Shown here piece by piece: positions 9,548-17,401 of a stretch of 48,491 nucleotides of DNA; the stretch's first letter is position 1; each line of letters begins with the position of its first letter. The DNA is from Meiothermus sp. (GTDB lineage: Bacteria; Deinococcota; Deinococci; Deinococcales; Thermaceae), in contig NZ_JANWVH010000010.1 of NCBI RefSeq assembly GCF_025056915.1, forward strand, positions 1 through 48,491, given 5' to 3'. Under the pieces are notes generated by a model. The model was given only the letters and a program-made list of their open reading frames with translations. It did not search any database and was not told where the DNA came from. A program made the position numbers and the translations under genes.

Positions 9548-9577
9548 GTGAGGGGCTTAATTGCCTCAGCCCCTCAC
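9548..9577 (-). promoter_or_regulatory. Intercistronic hairpin between coxM and moxR
   Basis: GTGAGGGGCT and AGCCCCTCAC form a perfect 10-bp stem around a 10-nt loop in the 66-bp gap. No T tract follows on the minus strand, so it looks like a processing or stabilising structure, or a weak attenuator, not a classical terminator. Confidence 0.55.
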
Positions 9578-9599
9578 AATTAACCTTATTGAACGACAA

Positions 9600-10436
9600 C
9601 TACAATCCAGCCGCCTGCATCAAGGCCCGCTTGGCCATCACGTCCACCAGGTGGGCGCGGTATTCCCTCGAGGCCACCAGGTCGTGGTTCAGGTGGTCGG
9701 GGGCGAGCAGCCCCTGGCAGGCCGCGCTGATGTTCTCGGTGGTCAGGGGTTTGCCGGCAAGGGCCTGCTCGAGCTTCGTCAGGCGCATGGCGTGTTCGCC
9801 AGCCCCGGTCACGGCAGCCCTGACCTCGGTGCCGTCCACCACCACCGCCACCCCCACCACCGCGGAGCGGCTGGCCGGGTGGGGGAACTTGGCGTAGGCC
9901 ATCCTGGCGCCGGGGCGGATGGGCAGGTGGATCTCGGTCAGGATTTCCCCTTCCTGCAGGGCCGTGCTGAACATACCGGTGAAGAACTGGTCGGCCTCCA
10001 CCACGCGGGCCCCGCTGGGGCCCTGGATTTTCATCTTGGCCCCCAAAGCCAGCATGGAGGCGGGCAGGTCGGCGGCGGGGTCGGCATGGGCCAGCGAACC
10101 CCCAATGGTGCCCTTGGCCCGCACCATGGGGTCGCCGATGTGATAGACGGCCTGGGGAATCAGGGGGCAGTGGGCCTTGAGCAGGTCGGAGGTCTCCAGC
10201 TCGCGGTAGGTGGTCATGGCCCCCACAACCAGGGTATCGCCCTCCCGGCGCACCCCGCGCAGCTCGGCAACCTTGGAGATGTCAATCAGGGCCGGCGGGG
10301 CGGCCAGGCGCAGCTTCATGGCCGGAATCAGGCTGTGGCCGCCGGCCAGCAGCTTGGCCTCGGGGTGCTGCTGCAACAGTTGGATGGCCTCGGCCACGCT
10401 GGTGGCTTTTTTGTAGGCAAATTCCGCTGTGTACAT
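9600..10436 (-). CDS. coxM: Molybdenum hydroxylase FAD-binding (medium) subunit, CoxM-like
   Basis: 278 residues. FAD-binding loops AGGHSLIPAMKLRLAAP near residue 35 and TIGGSLAHADPAADLPA near residue 110 are characteristic of the CO dehydrogenase/xanthine dehydrogenase medium subunit. It passes electrons from the [2Fe-2S] subunit to an acceptor such as quinone. A strong GGAGGA site stands just before the ATG. It is third in an S-L-M gene order, 21 bp after coxL. Confidence 0.92.
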   Translation of the reverse strand: MYTAEFAYKKATSVAEAIQLLQQHPEAKLLAGGHSLIPAMKLRLAAPPALIDISKVAELRGVRREGDTLVVGAMTTYRELETSDLLKAHCPLIPQAVYHIGDPMVRAKGTIGGSLAHADPAADLPASMLALGAKMKIQGPSGARVVEADQFFTGMFSTALQEGEILTEIHLPIRPGARMAYAKFPHPASRSAVVGVAVVVDGTEVRAAVTGAGEHAMRLTKLEQALAGKPLTTENISAACQGLLAPDHLNHDLVASREYRAHLVDVMAKRALMQAAGL

Positions 10437-10457
10437 GGTTCCTCCCAGGAAGCCCGG

Positions 10458-12827
10458 CTAGTCTGCGGCCTGGGCCACCGGCTTCGACCCGTGGATGGCC
10501 CGCCAGACCTTCTCCGGGGTGTAGGGCATGTCGAGGTGCACGATGCCAAAAGGCCGCAGGGCGTCCATCACGGCGTTGGCCACCGCCGCAGTGGAGGCGA
10601 TGGTGCCGGCCTCGCCGATGCCCTTGATGCCCAGGGGGTTGTGCGGGCAGGGGGTGACGGTGTGGTCGTGCTCGATCTGCACCATGTCGTCGGCGCGGGG
10701 CAGGGTGTACTCCAGGAAGTTGCCCGAGAGTATCTGGCCTTCCTTGTCGTAGACAGCCTCTTCCAGCAGGGCCTGCCCCAGGCCCTGGGCGATGCCCCCG
10801 TGCACCTGGCCGTCGGCAATCAGCGGGTTGATGACCGGGCCGCAGTCGTCCACCGAGAGGTAGCGCAGAAGCTTGACCTTGCCGGTGTCGGGGTCCACCT
10901 CCACCACCGCGATGTGGGTGCCGAAGGGGAAGACGAAGTTTTTGGGGTCGTAGAAGTGGGTGGCCTCGAGGCCGGGCTCGAGGTCGGCGGGGTAGTTGTG
11001 GGCCAGGTGGGCCATCAGGGCGATGTCGAAGAAGCTCTTGGCCTTGTCGGGCACCCCCTTGACCATGAACTTGCCGTCCTCGTGCACGATGTCGTCCGGG
11101 CTGGCCTCGAGCAGGTGCGCGGCAATCTTCTTGGCCTTGTCCACAATCTTGCGGGTCGCCAGCACAATGGCCGAGAGGCCTGTAGGCGCCGAGCGCGAAC
11201 CATAAGAACCCCAGCCATAGGGCATCCGCCCGGTGTCGCCGTGGACGATGACCACGTCCTCCACCGGAATCTGCAACTCATCCGCCACCACCTGGGCAAA
11301 GGCCGTCTCGTGGCCCTGGCCGTGGCTGTGGGTGCCGGTGAAGACCTCCACCTTGCCGGTTGGCATGACCCGCACCAGAGCGCTCTCCCACTGCCCGGCC
11401 TGTGCACCCAGGCTGCCCACCAGGGCAGAGGGAGCCAGCCCGCAGGCCTCGATGAACGTAATCACTCCAATCCCCAGGTAGCGGCCCTGCTTGCGCAGCT
11501 CGGCCTGCTGCCGGCGCAGCTCCTGGTAGCCCACCATCTGCAAAGCTTTGTCCAGGTTGGCCTCGTAGTTGCCGGAGTCGTACTGCAGGGCCACCGGGGT
11601 CTGGTAGGGGAAGGCGTCGGGGGGAATCAGGTTCTTGCGGCGAAACTCCACCGGGTCCATGCCCAGTTCGTGAGCCATCACGTCCACCAGCCGCTCCAGG
11701 AGGTAGGTGGCCTCGGGCCGCCCGGCCCCCCGGTAGGCGTCCACAGGGGTGGTGTGGGTGAAGGGCGCGGTCACGTGGCAGTAGATGTGCGGGGTGGTGT
11801 AGGTGCCGGCCAGCAAGCAGCCGTACAGGTAGGTGGGCACCGCCGGAGCAAAGGTGGTCAGGTAGGCACCCATGTTGGCGATGGTGTCCACCCGCACGGC
11901 GGTAATTTTGCCGTTCTGGTCTACGGCCATCTCGGCCACGGTCTCGTGGTCGCGCCCGTGGGAGTCGGTCACAAAGCTCTCCGAGCGCCGGGCCGTCCAC
12001 TTGACCGGGCGGCCCAGCTTCTTGGCCGCGTACAGAACGATAATCTCCTCGGGGTACTGGTAAATCTTGGAGCCAAAGCCCCCGCCCACATCCGGCGCAA
12101 TAACCCGCAGCTTGTGCTCGGGAATGCCCATGATGAAGGCCGCAATCAGGAGGCGATGGATGTGGGGGTTCTGGCTGGTGGTCCAGAGGGTGTACTCGTC
12201 CGAGGCTTTCAGGTACTGGGCCAGGCTGGCCCGGGGCTCCATGGCGTTGGGAACCAGCCGGTTGTTGCGCAGGGTGAGCTTCACAGTCTTGTGGGCGCTG
12301 GCAAAAGCCGCGTCCACAGCCGCCTTGTCGCCGATGCTCCAGGTGAAGCAGACGTTGTCGGGCACGTCGTCGTGCACGGCGGGGGCGCCGGGTTTGAGGG
12401 CATCGCTGCCCAGGGCCACTGCCGGGAGCGGCTCGTAGTCTACCTCCACCAGTTGCGCGGCATCCTCGGCAATCTGGCGGTTCTCGGCGATGACCGCAGC
12501 CACGATGTCGCCCACATGCCGGGCCTTGTCAAAGGTGATGGCGTAGTGGGGCGGGGTTTTGATGCCGGGGTGCAGCCAGCCGGTGGGGATGCTGTTGATG
12601 CCGGCATCCTTCATCTCCTGGCCGGTAATCACGGCCAGAACGCCGGGGTGGGTCAGGGCTTTGGAAGCGTCAATCTTCTTGATGCGGGCGTGGGCATAGG
12701 GCGAGCGCACCATGGCGGCTTCCACCATGCCGGGGAGGGTCATATCGTCGGTGTAGTGACCGGTTCCGGTGATGAAACGAGGGTCCTCGACCCGCTTCAT
12801 CGCCTTGCCAAAAAGTTTGTTGGCCAT
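10458..12827 (-). CDS. coxL: Molybdenum hydroxylase large subunit, form II CO-dehydrogenase-like
   Basis: 789 residues, full length. It binds molybdopterin cytosine dinucleotide and carries the active site; the end shows the conserved GIGEAG with the catalytic Glu. The active-site loop reads AYRGAGR, the form II signature, instead of the AYXCSFR with the copper-binding Cys that defines true form I aerobic CO dehydrogenase. The S-L-M gene order is also form II. Form II enzymes were proposed to oxidise CO poorly or to act on other substrates, so CO oxidation should not be assumed. The start follows an AGGGGG ribosome site. Cofactor insertion is probably served by the flanking MoxR, VWA and XdhC genes. 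Confidence 0.92.
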   Translation of the reverse strand: MANKLFGKAMKRVEDPRFITGTGHYTDDMTLPGMVEAAMVRSPYAHARIKKIDASKALTHPGVLAVITGQEMKDAGINSIPTGWLHPGIKTPPHYAITFDKARHVGDIVAAVIAENRQIAEDAAQLVEVDYEPLPAVALGSDALKPGAPAVHDDVPDNVCFTWSIGDKAAVDAAFASAHKTVKLTLRNNRLVPNAMEPRASLAQYLKASDEYTLWTTSQNPHIHRLLIAAFIMGIPEHKLRVIAPDVGGGFGSKIYQYPEEIIVLYAAKKLGRPVKWTARRSESFVTDSHGRDHETVAEMAVDQNGKITAVRVDTIANMGAYLTTFAPAVPTYLYGCLLAGTYTTPHIYCHVTAPFTHTTPVDAYRGAGRPEATYLLERLVDVMAHELGMDPVEFRRKNLIPPDAFPYQTPVALQYDSGNYEANLDKALQMVGYQELRRQQAELRKQGRYLGIGVITFIEACGLAPSALVGSLGAQAGQWESALVRVMPTGKVEVFTGTHSHGQGHETAFAQVVADELQIPVEDVVIVHGDTGRMPYGWGSYGSRSAPTGLSAIVLATRKIVDKAKKIAAHLLEASPDDIVHEDGKFMVKGVPDKAKSFFDIALMAHLAHNYPADLEPGLEATHFYDPKNFVFPFGTHIAVVEVDPDTGKVKLLRYLSVDDCGPVINPLIADGQVHGGIAQGLGQALLEEAVYDKEGQILSGNFLEYTLPRADDMVQIEHDHTVTPCPHNPLGIKGIGEAGTIASTAAVANAVMDALRPFGIVHLDMPYTPEKVWRAIHGSKPVAQAAD

Positions 12828-12839
12828 CGTTTTACCCCC

Positions 12840-13340
12840 TTAATCGTCGGCGGCCATTGCGACCTTTCCGGCCATCTTATCGGCGGCGTACTGTACGGCC
12901 CGCACGATATTGTGATAGCCGGTGCAGCGGCAGTAGTTGCCTTCCAGGGCGTGGCGAATTTCGGCCTCGGAAGGGTTGGGGTTTTTATTGAGAAGGTCTA
13001 CTGCTGCCATAATCATGCCGGGCGTGCAGAAGCCGCATTGAAGCCCGTGCATCTCCCAGAAACCCTCCTGCACGGGGTGGAGGCTGCCGGGGCTGCCCAG
13101 GCCCTCGATGGTGGTGATGCTGCAACCATCGGCCTGCACAGCGAACATGGTGCAGGATTTGACCGCCTGGCCGTCCAGATGCACGGTACAGGCCCCGCAC
13201 TGGCTGGTGTCGCAGCCGACGTGGGTGCCGGTGAGGCCCAGGGTTTCGCGCAGGTAGTGAACCAGCAACAGCCGGGGTTCGACCTCGTGATGGTGCTCGA
13301 CCCCGTTGACAACCACCGTGATGTGTACTTTATCTGCCAT
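12840..13340 (-). CDS. coxS: Molybdenum hydroxylase [2Fe-2S] (small) subunit, CoxS-like
   Basis: 166 residues. The plant-type [2Fe-2S] site is in [15 protein letters not shown] with the fourth Cys in KSCTMF; the second site, unique to this family, is [11 protein letters not shown] plus YCRCTGY. It relays electrons from molybdopterin in CoxL to FAD in CoxM. A near-perfect AAGGAGGAAGC precedes the ATG. This is the first gene of the cluster; the 407 bp upstream separates it from the divergent maturation gene. Confidence 0.96.
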
Positions 13341-13747
13341 GCTTCCTCCTTGTTGCAGGGTATGGATTGTCCAACAAGACGCAGAGCGATTCGACGATCA
13401 GGGTGGGCCCTGGTCGCTTCCTAGGTACCCTGGCAGGTCAAGTGCGATGCGATGGCCGGCCTTTTGCGGCACGAAGTGAACCATAGTTTGGGGATGCGGG
13501 CCGTTTGTGTGTGAGAAATGAAACAAAGCCTCACCTCGAGCTTTCTACCCAAAACGATTCCAGCCTGGCCAAACCAACCGCGTGGGTGCGAGTAACTTAG
13601 AATCTTTTAGACCCTACTATATTACCGGGACGATGAGAGTAGCAAGATTCCAGTTCTTTTGCCGATGGCAGGAAAACCTCTAAATGTGTGCTGCTGTCAA
13701 GGTTGGGAGCGGCTCGAGGGTGTATCTTAGAACAAGAGGAAAAGCCA
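13341..13747. promoter_or_regulatory. 407-bp intergenic region between divergent coxS and xdhC/coxI
   Basis: I see no gene here. For the plus-strand gene a TATCTT box lies about 20 bp before the ATG and a good AAGAGGA ribosome site follows. A GTGAG...CTCAC inverted repeat with a 14-nt spacer at about 13520-13543 is the only operator-like signal. No convincing coxS promoter was found. Confidence 0.3.
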
Positions 13748-14836
13748 ATGGCAAACGAGACCCCCCTCTTGCTAGTTGCCCTCGAGGCTGCCTGGGCCGA
13801 GGGCAAAGAGACCGCTCTGGCCACAGTAGTGCGTGTGATTGGCTCGGCCTACCGCCGCGAGGGCGCCAAGATGCTGGTGCGCGAAGATGGCGGCTCGGCC
13901 TGCATGATTTCCGGGGGTTGCCTGGAGCAGGAGATGATTGAGATTGCCATGCAAATCCTGGCGCGGGGCCGCCCCGAGCGCACCATCTTCGACTACAACG
14001 AGGACAAAACCTGGTGGCCCGGCTGTGGGGGTACGGTGGAGGTCTGGGTAGAGCCCGTTCAGCCCCAGGGGATGCTCCACCGCTGGCTACTGGAGAGCAC
14101 CGAGTCCGAACCCTCGGTGCTGGCGACGGTACTGGCTGGTGGGGAAGGGCGTGTTTGGCTAAGGCCCGACGGAACCCTCGAGGGCCAGATCTCGCCCCCG
14201 GAGCTTCACGAGCAGGTGGTACGCATGGCCCGGCAGATGCAAAGCGGCACCTCCCGCCCCACCACCCGCTACGTGCAGGAGGCCGAGGTTTTTTTCGATG
14301 TGAGCAGCCCCATTCCCGAGCTGGTTTTGTTTGGCGCAGGTCACGACGCCAAGCCCATGGCCAACCAGGCCCTGGTGCTGGGGTTCAAGGTCACGGTGGT
14401 GGATGCCCGCCCCGAGCTTTTGCACGCCTTCGAGGGCTGCCAGACCATTCAGGCCGCCCACGATGAATACGCTCAAAAGATTGCCCTGACCCCCCGGCAG
14501 CACGTGATTGTGATGAACCACCACCTGGACATAGACCGTCAGGCCCTGCGTTTTGCGCTGGAGTCGCCTGCTCGCTACGTGGGCATGCTCGGGCCGCGCA
14601 ACCGCCTGGAAAAAATCCTCGAGGCCCTGCGGGTCGAAGGCTTTGTGCCGAGCCCCGAGCAGATGGCCCGGCTGCGCAACCCCATTGGCCTGGACATTGG
14701 TGCGGAAAGCCCCGAGGAGATTGCGGTGGCCGCCCTGGCCGAGATTGTGGCCCTCCAGCGAGGCTTTGGCGGTGGATTCTTGAACGATAAGAAAACCGGA
14801 ATTCACGAGGCCGCCCTTGCTGGAGTGCTGGGCTGA
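13748..14836 (+). CDS. XdhC/CoxI family molybdenum-cofactor maturation protein
   Basis: 362 residues from the ATG at 13748, chosen over an upstream in-frame ATG because an AAGAGGA site directly precedes it and the family begins here. The N-terminal XdhC block has RVIGSAYRREGAKMLVREDG and ISGGCLEQEM; the C-terminal Rossmann domain begins LVLFGAGHDAKPMANQALVLGFKVTVVDAR. XdhC binds and sulfurates molybdenum cofactor and delivers it to its hydroxylase. Divergent position next to coxSLM makes that enzyme its probable client. Confidence 0.92.
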   Translation: MANETPLLLVALEAAWAEGKETALATVVRVIGSAYRREGAKMLVREDGGSACMISGGCLEQEMIEIAMQILARGRPERTIFDYNEDKTWWPGCGGTVEVWVEPVQPQGMLHRWLLESTESEPSVLATVLAGGEGRVWLRPDGTLEGQISPPELHEQVVRMARQMQSGTSRPTTRYVQEAEVFFDVSSPIPELVLFGAGHDAKPMANQALVLGFKVTVVDARPELLHAFEGCQTIQAAHDEYAQKIALTPRQHVIVMNHHLDIDRQALRFALESPARYVGMLGPRNRLEKILEALRVEGFVPSPEQMARLRNPIGLDIGAESPEEIAVAALAEIVALQRGFGGGFLNDKKTGIHEAALAGVLG

Positions 14837-14916: not shown

Positions 14917-14993
<77 letters not shown>

Positions 14994-14994
14994 G

Positions 14995-15071
14995 GGCTAT
15001 GTAGCTCAGCTGGTTAGAGCACACGACTCATAATCGTGGTGTCGGCGGTTCAAGTCCGCCCATAGCCACCA
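14995..15071 (+). tRNA. Elongator tRNA-Met (CAT)
   Basis: 77 nt with encoded CCA, one base after the initiator tRNA. Seven-base acceptor stem GGCTATG/CATAGCC, anticodon CAT, GGCGG/CCGCC T-stem. The whole body resembles known elongator tRNA-Met. A lysidine-modified tRNA-Ile2 also reads CAT in the gene; its usual acceptor stem differs, so I prefer Met. Confidence 0.88.
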
Positions 15072-15109: not shown

Positions 15110-15343
15110 CGCTGGCCGGCTTCACCCAAGGGGGCTTGCGGGCGCAAGCGCGATGAGTTTGGCCGGGACCGTCAATGCTCTGAGGCTCGTGCCAACTTTA
15201 TTCATGGAAACGCAGCATGGGCGTGGGTGGTCGGCCTCCAGCAGCTGTCCACTATTCCCAAAGCCCTCTGCCCTGCCTCACCGCTTGCACCTTTTGCCTG
15301 GTCTTCAACTCGAGCGCCCTACTCCGGCAGGCCCCTTATGCGG

Positions 15344-15349
15344 TAGATT
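15344..15349 (+). promoter_or_regulatory. -10 element of the purine nucleoside phosphorylase gene
   Basis: TAGATT 7 bp before the ATG at 15357, leaderless arrangement. The 234 bp between the tRNA terminator and this box holds no gene that I can support. Confidence 0.5.
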
Positions 15350-15356
15350 TGGGGCT

Positions 15357-16178
15357 ATGAGTTCGACCTACGACCAGATTCAGCAGACGGTAAGCCATAT
15401 TCGTTCGCAGACCGATTTCGTGCCCGAGGTGGGCCTCGTGCTGGGTTCGGGCCTGGGGCCTCTGGGCGACGAGATAGAGGTGGTGGCCAGTTTTCCCTAC
15501 AGCTCGCTGCCCAACTTTCCCCAGTCCACAGCGCCGGGCCACGAGGGAAAACTGATTCTGGGCCGGCTCGAGGGCAAAAATGTGCTGGCCTACAAGGGCC
15601 GGGTGCACTGCTACGAAGGGTATTCCGCAGCGCAGGTCGCATTCCCGCAGCGGGTTGGGTTTTTCCTGGGGGCCAAAACCTTTCTCATCACCTCGGCGGC
15701 GGGGGGGCTCAACCCGGGCTGGAGTGCCGGGGAGCTGATGCTGCACAGCGACTACATTAACTTTGCCCCCTTATCGCCGCTGACCGGCCCCAACGATGAA
15801 CGGCTGGGGCCGCGGTTTCCCGTGACCTTTGATGCCTACGACCCACAGCTTCGCAGCCTGGCCCTTCAGGTGGCCCGAGCGCAGGATTTTCACCTGCGCG
15901 AAGGGGTGTATGCCTGGTGGCCGGGGCCGCAGTTTGCCAGTCGGGCCGAACTCAGGCTGCTGCGCACCCTGGGGGCCGATGCCATCGGGATGTCCACCGT
16001 GCCGGAAGTGATTGCCCTGCGGCACCTGGGGGCGCGGGTGCTGGGCCTTTCGACCATCACCGACATGGCCGTGCCCGAGCGCGACCACCACGCCACCGAG
16101 CAGGAAGTGCTGGCCACGGCGGCCAGGAGTGGGGCCTTGTTCCGCAGGTTTGTGCGGGGCATTTTGGCGGCTTTATAG
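15357..16178 (+). CDS. Purine nucleoside phosphorylase, trimeric class, with altered purine pocket
   Basis: 273 residues; phosphate-binding LGSGLG near residue 30, catalytic His in KGRVHCYEGYS, the SAAGGLNP block and GADAIGMSTVPEVI. It cleaves purine nucleosides with phosphate to base and ribose 1-phosphate. Two residues that normally read 6-oxopurines are changed: the GPxFET Glu is Ala (GPQFAS, A194), and the STxTN Asn is Asp (STITD, D236). In human PNP the Asn-to-Asp change (N243D) enables adenosine use, so this enzyme may prefer adenosine; that is a prediction. The start at 15357 is fixed by the TAGATT box; the upstream 68 codons of open frame are not family-like. It is cotranscribed with yggS 15 bp later. 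Confidence 0.92.
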   Translation: MSSTYDQIQQTVSHIRSQTDFVPEVGLVLGSGLGPLGDEIEVVASFPYSSLPNFPQSTAPGHEGKLILGRLEGKNVLAYKGRVHCYEGYSAAQVAFPQRVGFFLGAKTFLITSAAGGLNPGWSAGELMLHSDYINFAPLSPLTGPNDERLGPRFPVTFDAYDPQLRSLALQVARAQDFHLREGVYAWWPGPQFASRAELRLLRTLGADAIGMSTVPEVIALRHLGARVLGLSTITDMAVPERDHHATEQEVLATAARSGALFRRFVRGILAAL

Positions 16179-16193
16179 CCCGGATAGCGAAGC

Positions 16194-16838
16194 ATGAGCC
16201 TACCCAAAGTCGTGGAGCGCATTGAAAAGGCCTGTCGCCGGGCAGGGCGAGACCCCGGTGCGGTGCGACTGGTTGCCGTAACCAAAGAGCACACGGTGGC
16301 TGAAATCCAAGAACAGGTCTTGCGGTATGGCCCTTTTCCTTTGGGCGAGTCGCGCATTCAGGAAGCCCTGCCCAAGATGGAGGCGCTGAAGGCCGAGTGG
16401 CACTTCATTGGCCCGCTCCAGCGGAACAAGGCCAAGTTTGCGGTGCGCTTCGACCTGATTCACTCCATTGACTCGGTTCGCCTGGCCGAGGCGGTGGCCC
16501 GCAAGGCCCGCGAAAACGGGCGGGTGCAACGGGTGCTGCTCGAGCTCAACCTGGGCCGGGAGCCCCAGAAGCACGGTTTTCTGGAGGAGGAGCTGCCTGC
16601 CGCTTTGGAATTGATTCGGGGCCTGGAAGGGCTGCGGGTTGAGGGCCTGATGACCGTGGCCCCCTACACCCAAGACCCCGAGACGGTGCGGCCCATCTTT
16701 GCCAGGCTCTCGAGGCTGGCCGACCTGTACGGGCTGCCAGAGCGAAGCATGGGCATGTCGGGCGATTTTGAAGTGGCGGTGGAGGAGGGGGCCACTTTGG
16801 TGCGGGTGGGGCGGGCGGTTTTTGAACCCGACGCCTGA
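16194..16838 (+). CDS. YggS/PROSC-type pyridoxal-phosphate homeostasis protein
   Basis: 214 residues, a single alanine-racemase-like barrel. PLP lysine K31 in AVTKEHT; WHFIGPLQRNKAKF, then GLRVEGLMTVAPYTQDPE and SMGMSGDFEVAVEEGATLVRVGRAVF are family signatures. These proteins carry and buffer PLP and have no known catalytic turnover. The next gene is a DivIVA-domain protein; in many Gram-positives the yggS homologue (ylmE) sits in the same division cluster. Confidence 0.96.
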   Translation: MSLPKVVERIEKACRRAGRDPGAVRLVAVTKEHTVAEIQEQVLRYGPFPLGESRIQEALPKMEALKAEWHFIGPLQRNKAKFAVRFDLIHSIDSVRLAEAVARKARENGRVQRVLLELNLGREPQKHGFLEEELPAALELIRGLEGLRVEGLMTVAPYTQDPETVRPIFARLSRLADLYGLPERSMGMSGDFEVAVEEGATLVRVGRAVFEPDA

Positions 16839-16909: not shown

Positions 16910-17401
16910 GTGGACGAGCGCATGACGGGTGAGTTTCGGATGAGCAGCGAGCGAGGCGATCTCACACCTCTGGACATTCGCTACCAGGAATTTCGACTGG
17001 GGCTCAGGGGCTACTCGGTGGCCGAGGTGCGCGAGTACCTGGGCCGGGTGGCCGATGTGCAGACCGCTTTGATTGAAGAGAATGAGCGCCTGCGCAGCCA
17101 CATCCGCGACCTCGAGGCCGAGCTGGCCAGGTCCAGGGAGGGGGAGGCCGAACTCAAACGGGCGGTGGTGGCCGCCGAGCGCATCGCCCGCGAGATCAAG
17201 GCCCAGGCCGAGCGCGAGGCTGAGCTCATCAAGCGCGAGACCGAGTCGGAGCGACAGGCGGCCTTACAGGAATTAATCGAACAGATGAAGCGCATCAAGG
17301 CCGATATTGAGCAGGTTCGCAACGAACGCGACCTGTTTGTGGGTCAGTTCAGGGCCCTTCTGGAGGGATACCTGACCTCGCTGGACCGATTCAAACGCTG
17401 A
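16910..17401 (+). CDS. DivIVA-domain coiled-coil protein
   Basis: 163 residues. The N-terminal lipid-binding DivIVA motif is seen in LTPLDIRYQEFRLGLRGYSVAEVREYLGRVAD (residues about 17-48), followed by a long charged coiled coil to the C-terminus. DivIVA proteins bind negatively curved membrane and recruit partners for division-site choice or polar growth. Deinococcus and Thermus relatives carry such proteins. Preceded by yggS as in the ylm division cluster, but no sepF is present between them. The cell-division role is inferred. Confidence 0.87.
   Translation: MDERMTGEFRMSSERGDLTPLDIRYQEFRLGLRGYSVAEVREYLGRVADVQTALIEENERLRSHIRDLEAELARSREGEAELKRAVVAAERIAREIKAQAEREAELIKRETESERQAALQELIEQMKRIKADIEQVRNERDLFVGQFRALLEGYLTSLDRFKR

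Follow-up and report, generated by a model that had tools for sequence, protein, structure and literature searches.

A predicted adenosine phosphorylase of the PNP II type in Meiothermus and the pairing of two purine nucleoside phosphorylase families in Deinococcota

The window, a 48,491-nucleotide stretch of DNA from Meiothermus sp. (genome G000; 3.02 Mb in 191 contigs), contained an intact open reading frame for a purine nucleoside phosphorylase (PNP), running from an ATG at position 15357 to a stop codon ending at position 16178 (Table 1). The encoded protein scored 285.6 bits against TIGR01697, the trimeric PNP/XapA family, for which the membership cutoff is 197.1 bits, and 159.4 bits against PF01048; it missed the equivalog cutoff of TIGR01700, the inosine/guanosine-specific PNP I model (283.4 versus 293.35 bits). 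Named relatives with 80 to 93% identity were from Meiothermus and Calidithermus species. A longer version starting from the ATG at position 15153 was rejected, as alignments with Meiothermus orthologues begin at residue 1 of the shorter protein. In the interval from 15344 to 15357, the sequence TAGATT, a possible -10 element, ends 7 bases 5' of the ATG, and no Shine-Dalgarno sequence was evident; this arrangement suggests that the transcript may be leaderless.

The PNP gene is followed by genes for a YggS-family pyridoxal phosphate (PLP) protein and a DivIVA-domain protein, and the two upstream tRNA genes mark the boundary of the gene block. The PNP-yggS order was found at all 30 loci with enough flanking sequence (L006 to L035) and at the majority of more distant loci in Deinococcota, usually with divIVA as the next gene, and this conservation points to vertical inheritance of the PNP gene. 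The molybdenum hydroxylase subunit gene and the XdhC-family gene adjoin the PNP gene in only some Meiothermus genomes and are probably unrelated to it. Antisense to the molybdenum hydroxylase region, there was a 1,287-codon open frame on the plus strand (positions 9561 to 13424), which is probably an artefact of high G+C content and not a gene.

Table 1. Genes and codons at the PNP locus and the hexameric PNP gene of the same genome
Feature	Coordinates	Strand	Basis or remark
Predicted PNP II-type purine nucleoside phosphorylase CDS, 273 aa	15357..16178	+	ORF; TIGR01697; PF01048; 77% identity to 6TK9
Ala194 codon GCC (human Glu201 position)	15936..15938	+	alignment
Asp236 codon GAC (human Asn243 position)	16062..16064	+	alignment
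Glu248 codon GAG (human His257 position, ribose 5'-OH side)	16098..16100	+	alignment
YggS-family PLP protein, next gene downstream of PNP	16194..16838	+	TIGR00044 above cutoff
DivIVA-domain protein	16910..17401	+	PF05103, 106 bits; synteny
Two tRNA-Met (CAT) genes, outside the system	14917..15071	+	
Molybdenum hydroxylase iron-sulfur subunit	12840-13340	-	closest model glyceraldehyde dehydrogenase gamma, below cutoff
Divergent XdhC-family maturation factor	13688-14836	+	
Hexameric DeoD, Asp204/Arg217 (L036)	G000:C125:63358-64062, outside the window		E. coli/Bacillus-like by sequence

Residues were matched to human positions by alignment to human PNP through the 2a0y sequence, an engineered variant with Asp at position 257, where the wild-type enzyme has His. 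The alignment bore out the two substitutions named in the original prediction: the canonical 6-oxopurine contacts Glu201 and Asn243 are absent, and Ala194 and Asp236 stand in their places. Two further differences had been missed, namely, Glu248 at the position of human His257, a 5'-OH contact, and Ser195 aligned with human Thr202. The equivalents of the phosphate and ribose residues Ser33, Arg84, His86, Tyr88, Glu89, Phe159, Phe200, Met219, and Ser220 are all kept, as would be expected of a catalytically competent enzyme with a changed base pocket, and the protein is 45% identical to human/bovine trimeric PNP. An (Ala/Ser)/Asp pair is present in all 18 genomes of the genus, which rules out a frameshift or sequencing artefact, and in 101 of 103 trimeric PNPs of the phylum, so that the pair cannot be put down to chance either.

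The comparison with the Thermus PNPs that the original prediction had proposed came out in its favor: the best match in the PDB was 6TK9 (1.5e-137; 77% identity), in which Ala, Asp, and Glu likewise occupy the positions of human residues 201, 243, and 257. The 6TK9 protein is 99% identical to the sole trimeric PNP of genome G075, the hexameric PNP of that genome has a listed identity of 100% to 1ODI, the hexameric enzyme from Thermus, and a 179-kDa hexamer fits subunits of about 271 residues; from these findings we infer that 6TK9 is Thermus thermophilus PNP II (TthPNP II). The hexamer masses listed for the two Thermus enzymes are 153 kDa (TthPNP I) and 179 kDa (TthPNP II) (PMC8073115), and TthPNP II is reported to act on adenosine, with a KM of 383 μM and a kcat of 483 per s, and to have no inosine activity (PMC11430614, a 2024 paper). 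The term “trimeric” applied earlier to the Meiothermus enzyme therefore holds as the name of its family (TIGR01697) but is doubtful as a description of its oligomeric state. Furthermore, an engineered human PNP, Glu201Gln:Asn243Asp, which is changed at the same two positions, cleaves adenosine-type substrates that the wild type does not (PMC2799393), although it has Gln instead of Ala at position 201 and His instead of Glu at position 257.

Based on close orthology to TthPNP II, with which it shares sequence, pocket residues, fold family, and presence as a single copy per genome, the Meiothermus protein is very probably, like that enzyme, a trimeric-family phosphorylase of the PNP/MTAP fold for adenosine and, probably, 2'-deoxyadenosine. 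The adenosine preference predicted from the two replaced contacts appears well supported by this orthology and by the engineered human enzyme; such a preference is known biology for PNP II-type enzymes, and the prediction was essentially right but not new. Counting against this reading, the nearest NCBIfam models are of the “inosine/guanosine/xanthosine” type. The protein would be a further natural adenosine PNP on a 6-oxopurine-specific scaffold, with a possible use in nucleoside synthesis.

The reaction would convert adenosine (probably also 2'-deoxyadenosine) and phosphate to adenine and (deoxy)ribose-1-phosphate. Replacement of Glu201 by Ala would take away the carboxylate by which 6-oxopurines are held at N1-H and the 2-amino group, Asp in place of Asn243 could serve as a hydrogen-bond acceptor for the 6-amino group and as a donor to N7, as in methylthioadenosine (MTA) phosphorylases, and Glu248 probably still contacts the 5'-OH in place of His257. 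From the comparisons above, we infer the specificity, the atomic role of each residue, and the physiological route described below.

A relaxed enzyme using both 6-amino and 6-oxopurine nucleosides would also agree with the substrates gained by the engineered human PNP, and the loss of Glu201 need not shut out inosine; this reading is nevertheless unlikely, given that TthPNP II, 77% identical and with the same pocket, is reported to be without inosine activity. It is more improbable still that the protein is a phosphorylase for MTA (MTAP) or another 5'-modified adenosine. MTAPs belong to the same fold superfamily and, like the Meiothermus protein, combine a small residue at position 201 with Asp at position 243; the base-site motif of the Meiothermus protein, FASRAE/TD, resembles that of MTAP, and the protein gave a weak match to TIGR01694. 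The score of that match, 59.4 bits, is far under the equivalog cutoff of 274.85 bits, and MTAP membership was rejected; the genome also encodes a separate MTA/SAH-nucleosidase-like protein (L003). In addition, MTAPs have a hydrophobic methylthio pocket, whereas the Meiothermus enzyme has the polar Glu248 on the 5' side, and the probable engagement of the 5'-OH by this residue makes unsubstituted adenosine, not methylthioadenosine, the expected substrate.

In the proposed route, the PNP II-type enzyme would release adenine from adenosine, which adenine deaminase would convert to hypoxanthine. The adenine deaminase Ade (TIGR01178) was found above cutoff in the Meiothermus genome (518.6 bits), and 31 of 41 genomes searched had such a match. 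No match to PF00962, the adenosine/adenine deaminase family, was above cutoff in any of these 41 genomes, and adenine is for this reason placed as the substrate of deamination. The Meiothermus genome also encodes a PF02578 protein; this family includes adenosine-active enzymes, and the protein could therefore add an adenosine activity, such that the PNP-Ade route may not be the only one.

The Meiothermus genome encodes five PNP_UDP_1 proteins, assigned by eye from sequence as PNP II-type, hexameric DeoD, MTA/SAH-nucleosidase-like, uridine-phosphorylase-like, and futalosine-hydrolase-like. The second PNP, which the original prediction had suggested looking for, is thus the hexameric DeoD on contig C125. 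Hexameric DeoD enzymes such as that of E. coli belong to another PNP family (235 aa) and catalyze the same reaction, with chemistry at Asp204 analogous to that at Asp236. Separate guanosine- and adenosine-preferring PNPs had been anticipated from Thermus; the adenosine-type orthologue is present, but its partner is an Asp204/Arg217 DeoD, unlike the inosine-type, 6-oxopurine Asn204 hexamer that accompanies PNP II in Thermus. Adenosine phosphorolysis in this genome is probably shared by the two PNPs and not partitioned as in Thermus. Because the Asp204 DeoD is predicted to be adenosine capable and the PF02578 protein may be as well, a special need for the PNP II-type enzyme is not proven.

A survey of 111 Deinococcota genomes yielded 105 trimeric-family and 103 hexameric-family sequences that were read at the diagnostic positions. 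Positions 201 and 243 could both be read in 103 trimeric PNPs and were Ala/Asp in 100, Ser/Asp in 1, and Glu/Asn in 2; two further fragments were readable at only one site. The Ala/Asp change is common to nearly the whole phylum, and the possibility that it is peculiar to this species was rejected. In the outgroup sample, which comprised PDB matches and 13 proteins from Actinomycetota, Bacillota, Pseudomonadota, and Bacteroidota, the 13 proteins were Glu/Asn except for one Glu/Asp protein of Bacteroidota. Asp with Glu201 kept occurs in this protein (Phocaeicola L115) and in PDB 4M1E, and Asp at position 243 alone is therefore no marker of adenosine use; the base preference of these two proteins would reveal the effect of that single change. 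In the tree, the sampled (Ala/Ser)/Asp proteins formed one clade (support, 100/99), apart from the outgroups and the two Glu/Asn proteins, and within it the Thermus and Meiothermus PNPs, including 6TK9, formed a clade with support of 99/97.

The hexameric PNPs of most Deinococcota, among them Thermus, Calidithermus, and M. granaticius, had Asn204, and Arg217 was missing in 79 of these 80 Asn204 proteins. Asp204 took its place in 16 of the 18 Meiothermus genomes and six family f3 genomes, in every case with Arg217 (22/22). In a tree with an outgroup of only five sequences, the Asn204 proteins formed one clade (100/100), and those with Asp204 fell into two separate clades, one of Meiothermus and one of f3, among the DeoD proteins of Enterococcus, Bacillus, and E. 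coli. This separation suggests two replacements of the hexameric PNP, one in Meiothermus and one in f3, both probably by horizontal transfer.

When genomes with both enzyme families read were compared, Asn204 hexamers were accompanied by an (Ala/Ser)/Asp trimer in 75 genomes and by a Glu/Asn trimer in none. Of the genomes with an Asp204 hexamer, 17 had an Ala/Asp trimer, 3 had a Glu-type trimer (a fragment in one case), and 2 yielded no trimer. Fisher's test comparing hexamer and trimer states returned a P value of 0.008, to which little weight is given, since the genomes are not independent. A trimeric PNP was not found in four Asn204 genomes, three of which are 64 to 72% complete; the fourth, Thermus genome G066 (L238), is listed as 100% complete and is possibly a real exception to complementarity, which would lack an obvious adenosine phosphorylase.

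The change to (Ala/Ser)/Asp in the trimer and the opposite change, Asp204 to Asn204, in most partner hexamers imply that the two PNP families may have exchanged roles. On balance, we favor an exchange early in Deinococcota, in which the trimeric enzyme would have become adenosine specific (Ala/Asp) and the hexameric enzyme 6-oxopurine specific (Asn204, with loss of Arg217). The complementary pair would then have been stable except where an Asp204 DeoD was acquired, in Meiothermus and one f3 branch, after which the trimer could disappear or give way to a canonical Glu/Asn enzyme. Meiothermus likely represents a natural stage of this process, with its hexameric partner replaced and the adenosine enzyme kept. 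The phylum-wide pattern, a clean and testable case of two enzyme families swapping substrate roles, and the Meiothermus exception are the modest new element here; no paper on either was found in a search of mainly open-access literature.

An ordinary inosine/guanosine PNP with functionally neutral contact changes would suit the generic TIGR01697 annotation but is scarcely credible in view of the TthPNP II kinetics and because both residues are fixed throughout the phylum and linked to the opposite change in the hexameric partner. The adenosine assignment suggests that, for most of Deinococcota, automatic naming as “inosine/guanosine PNP” or the like is incorrect.

Within family f3 (L105, L106, L108, L109, and L110; genomes G100, G099, G086, G077, and G110), the Asp204 DeoD occurs with a canonical Glu-type trimer in three genomes, one of these trimers being a fragment read only at Glu, and without a trimer in two.
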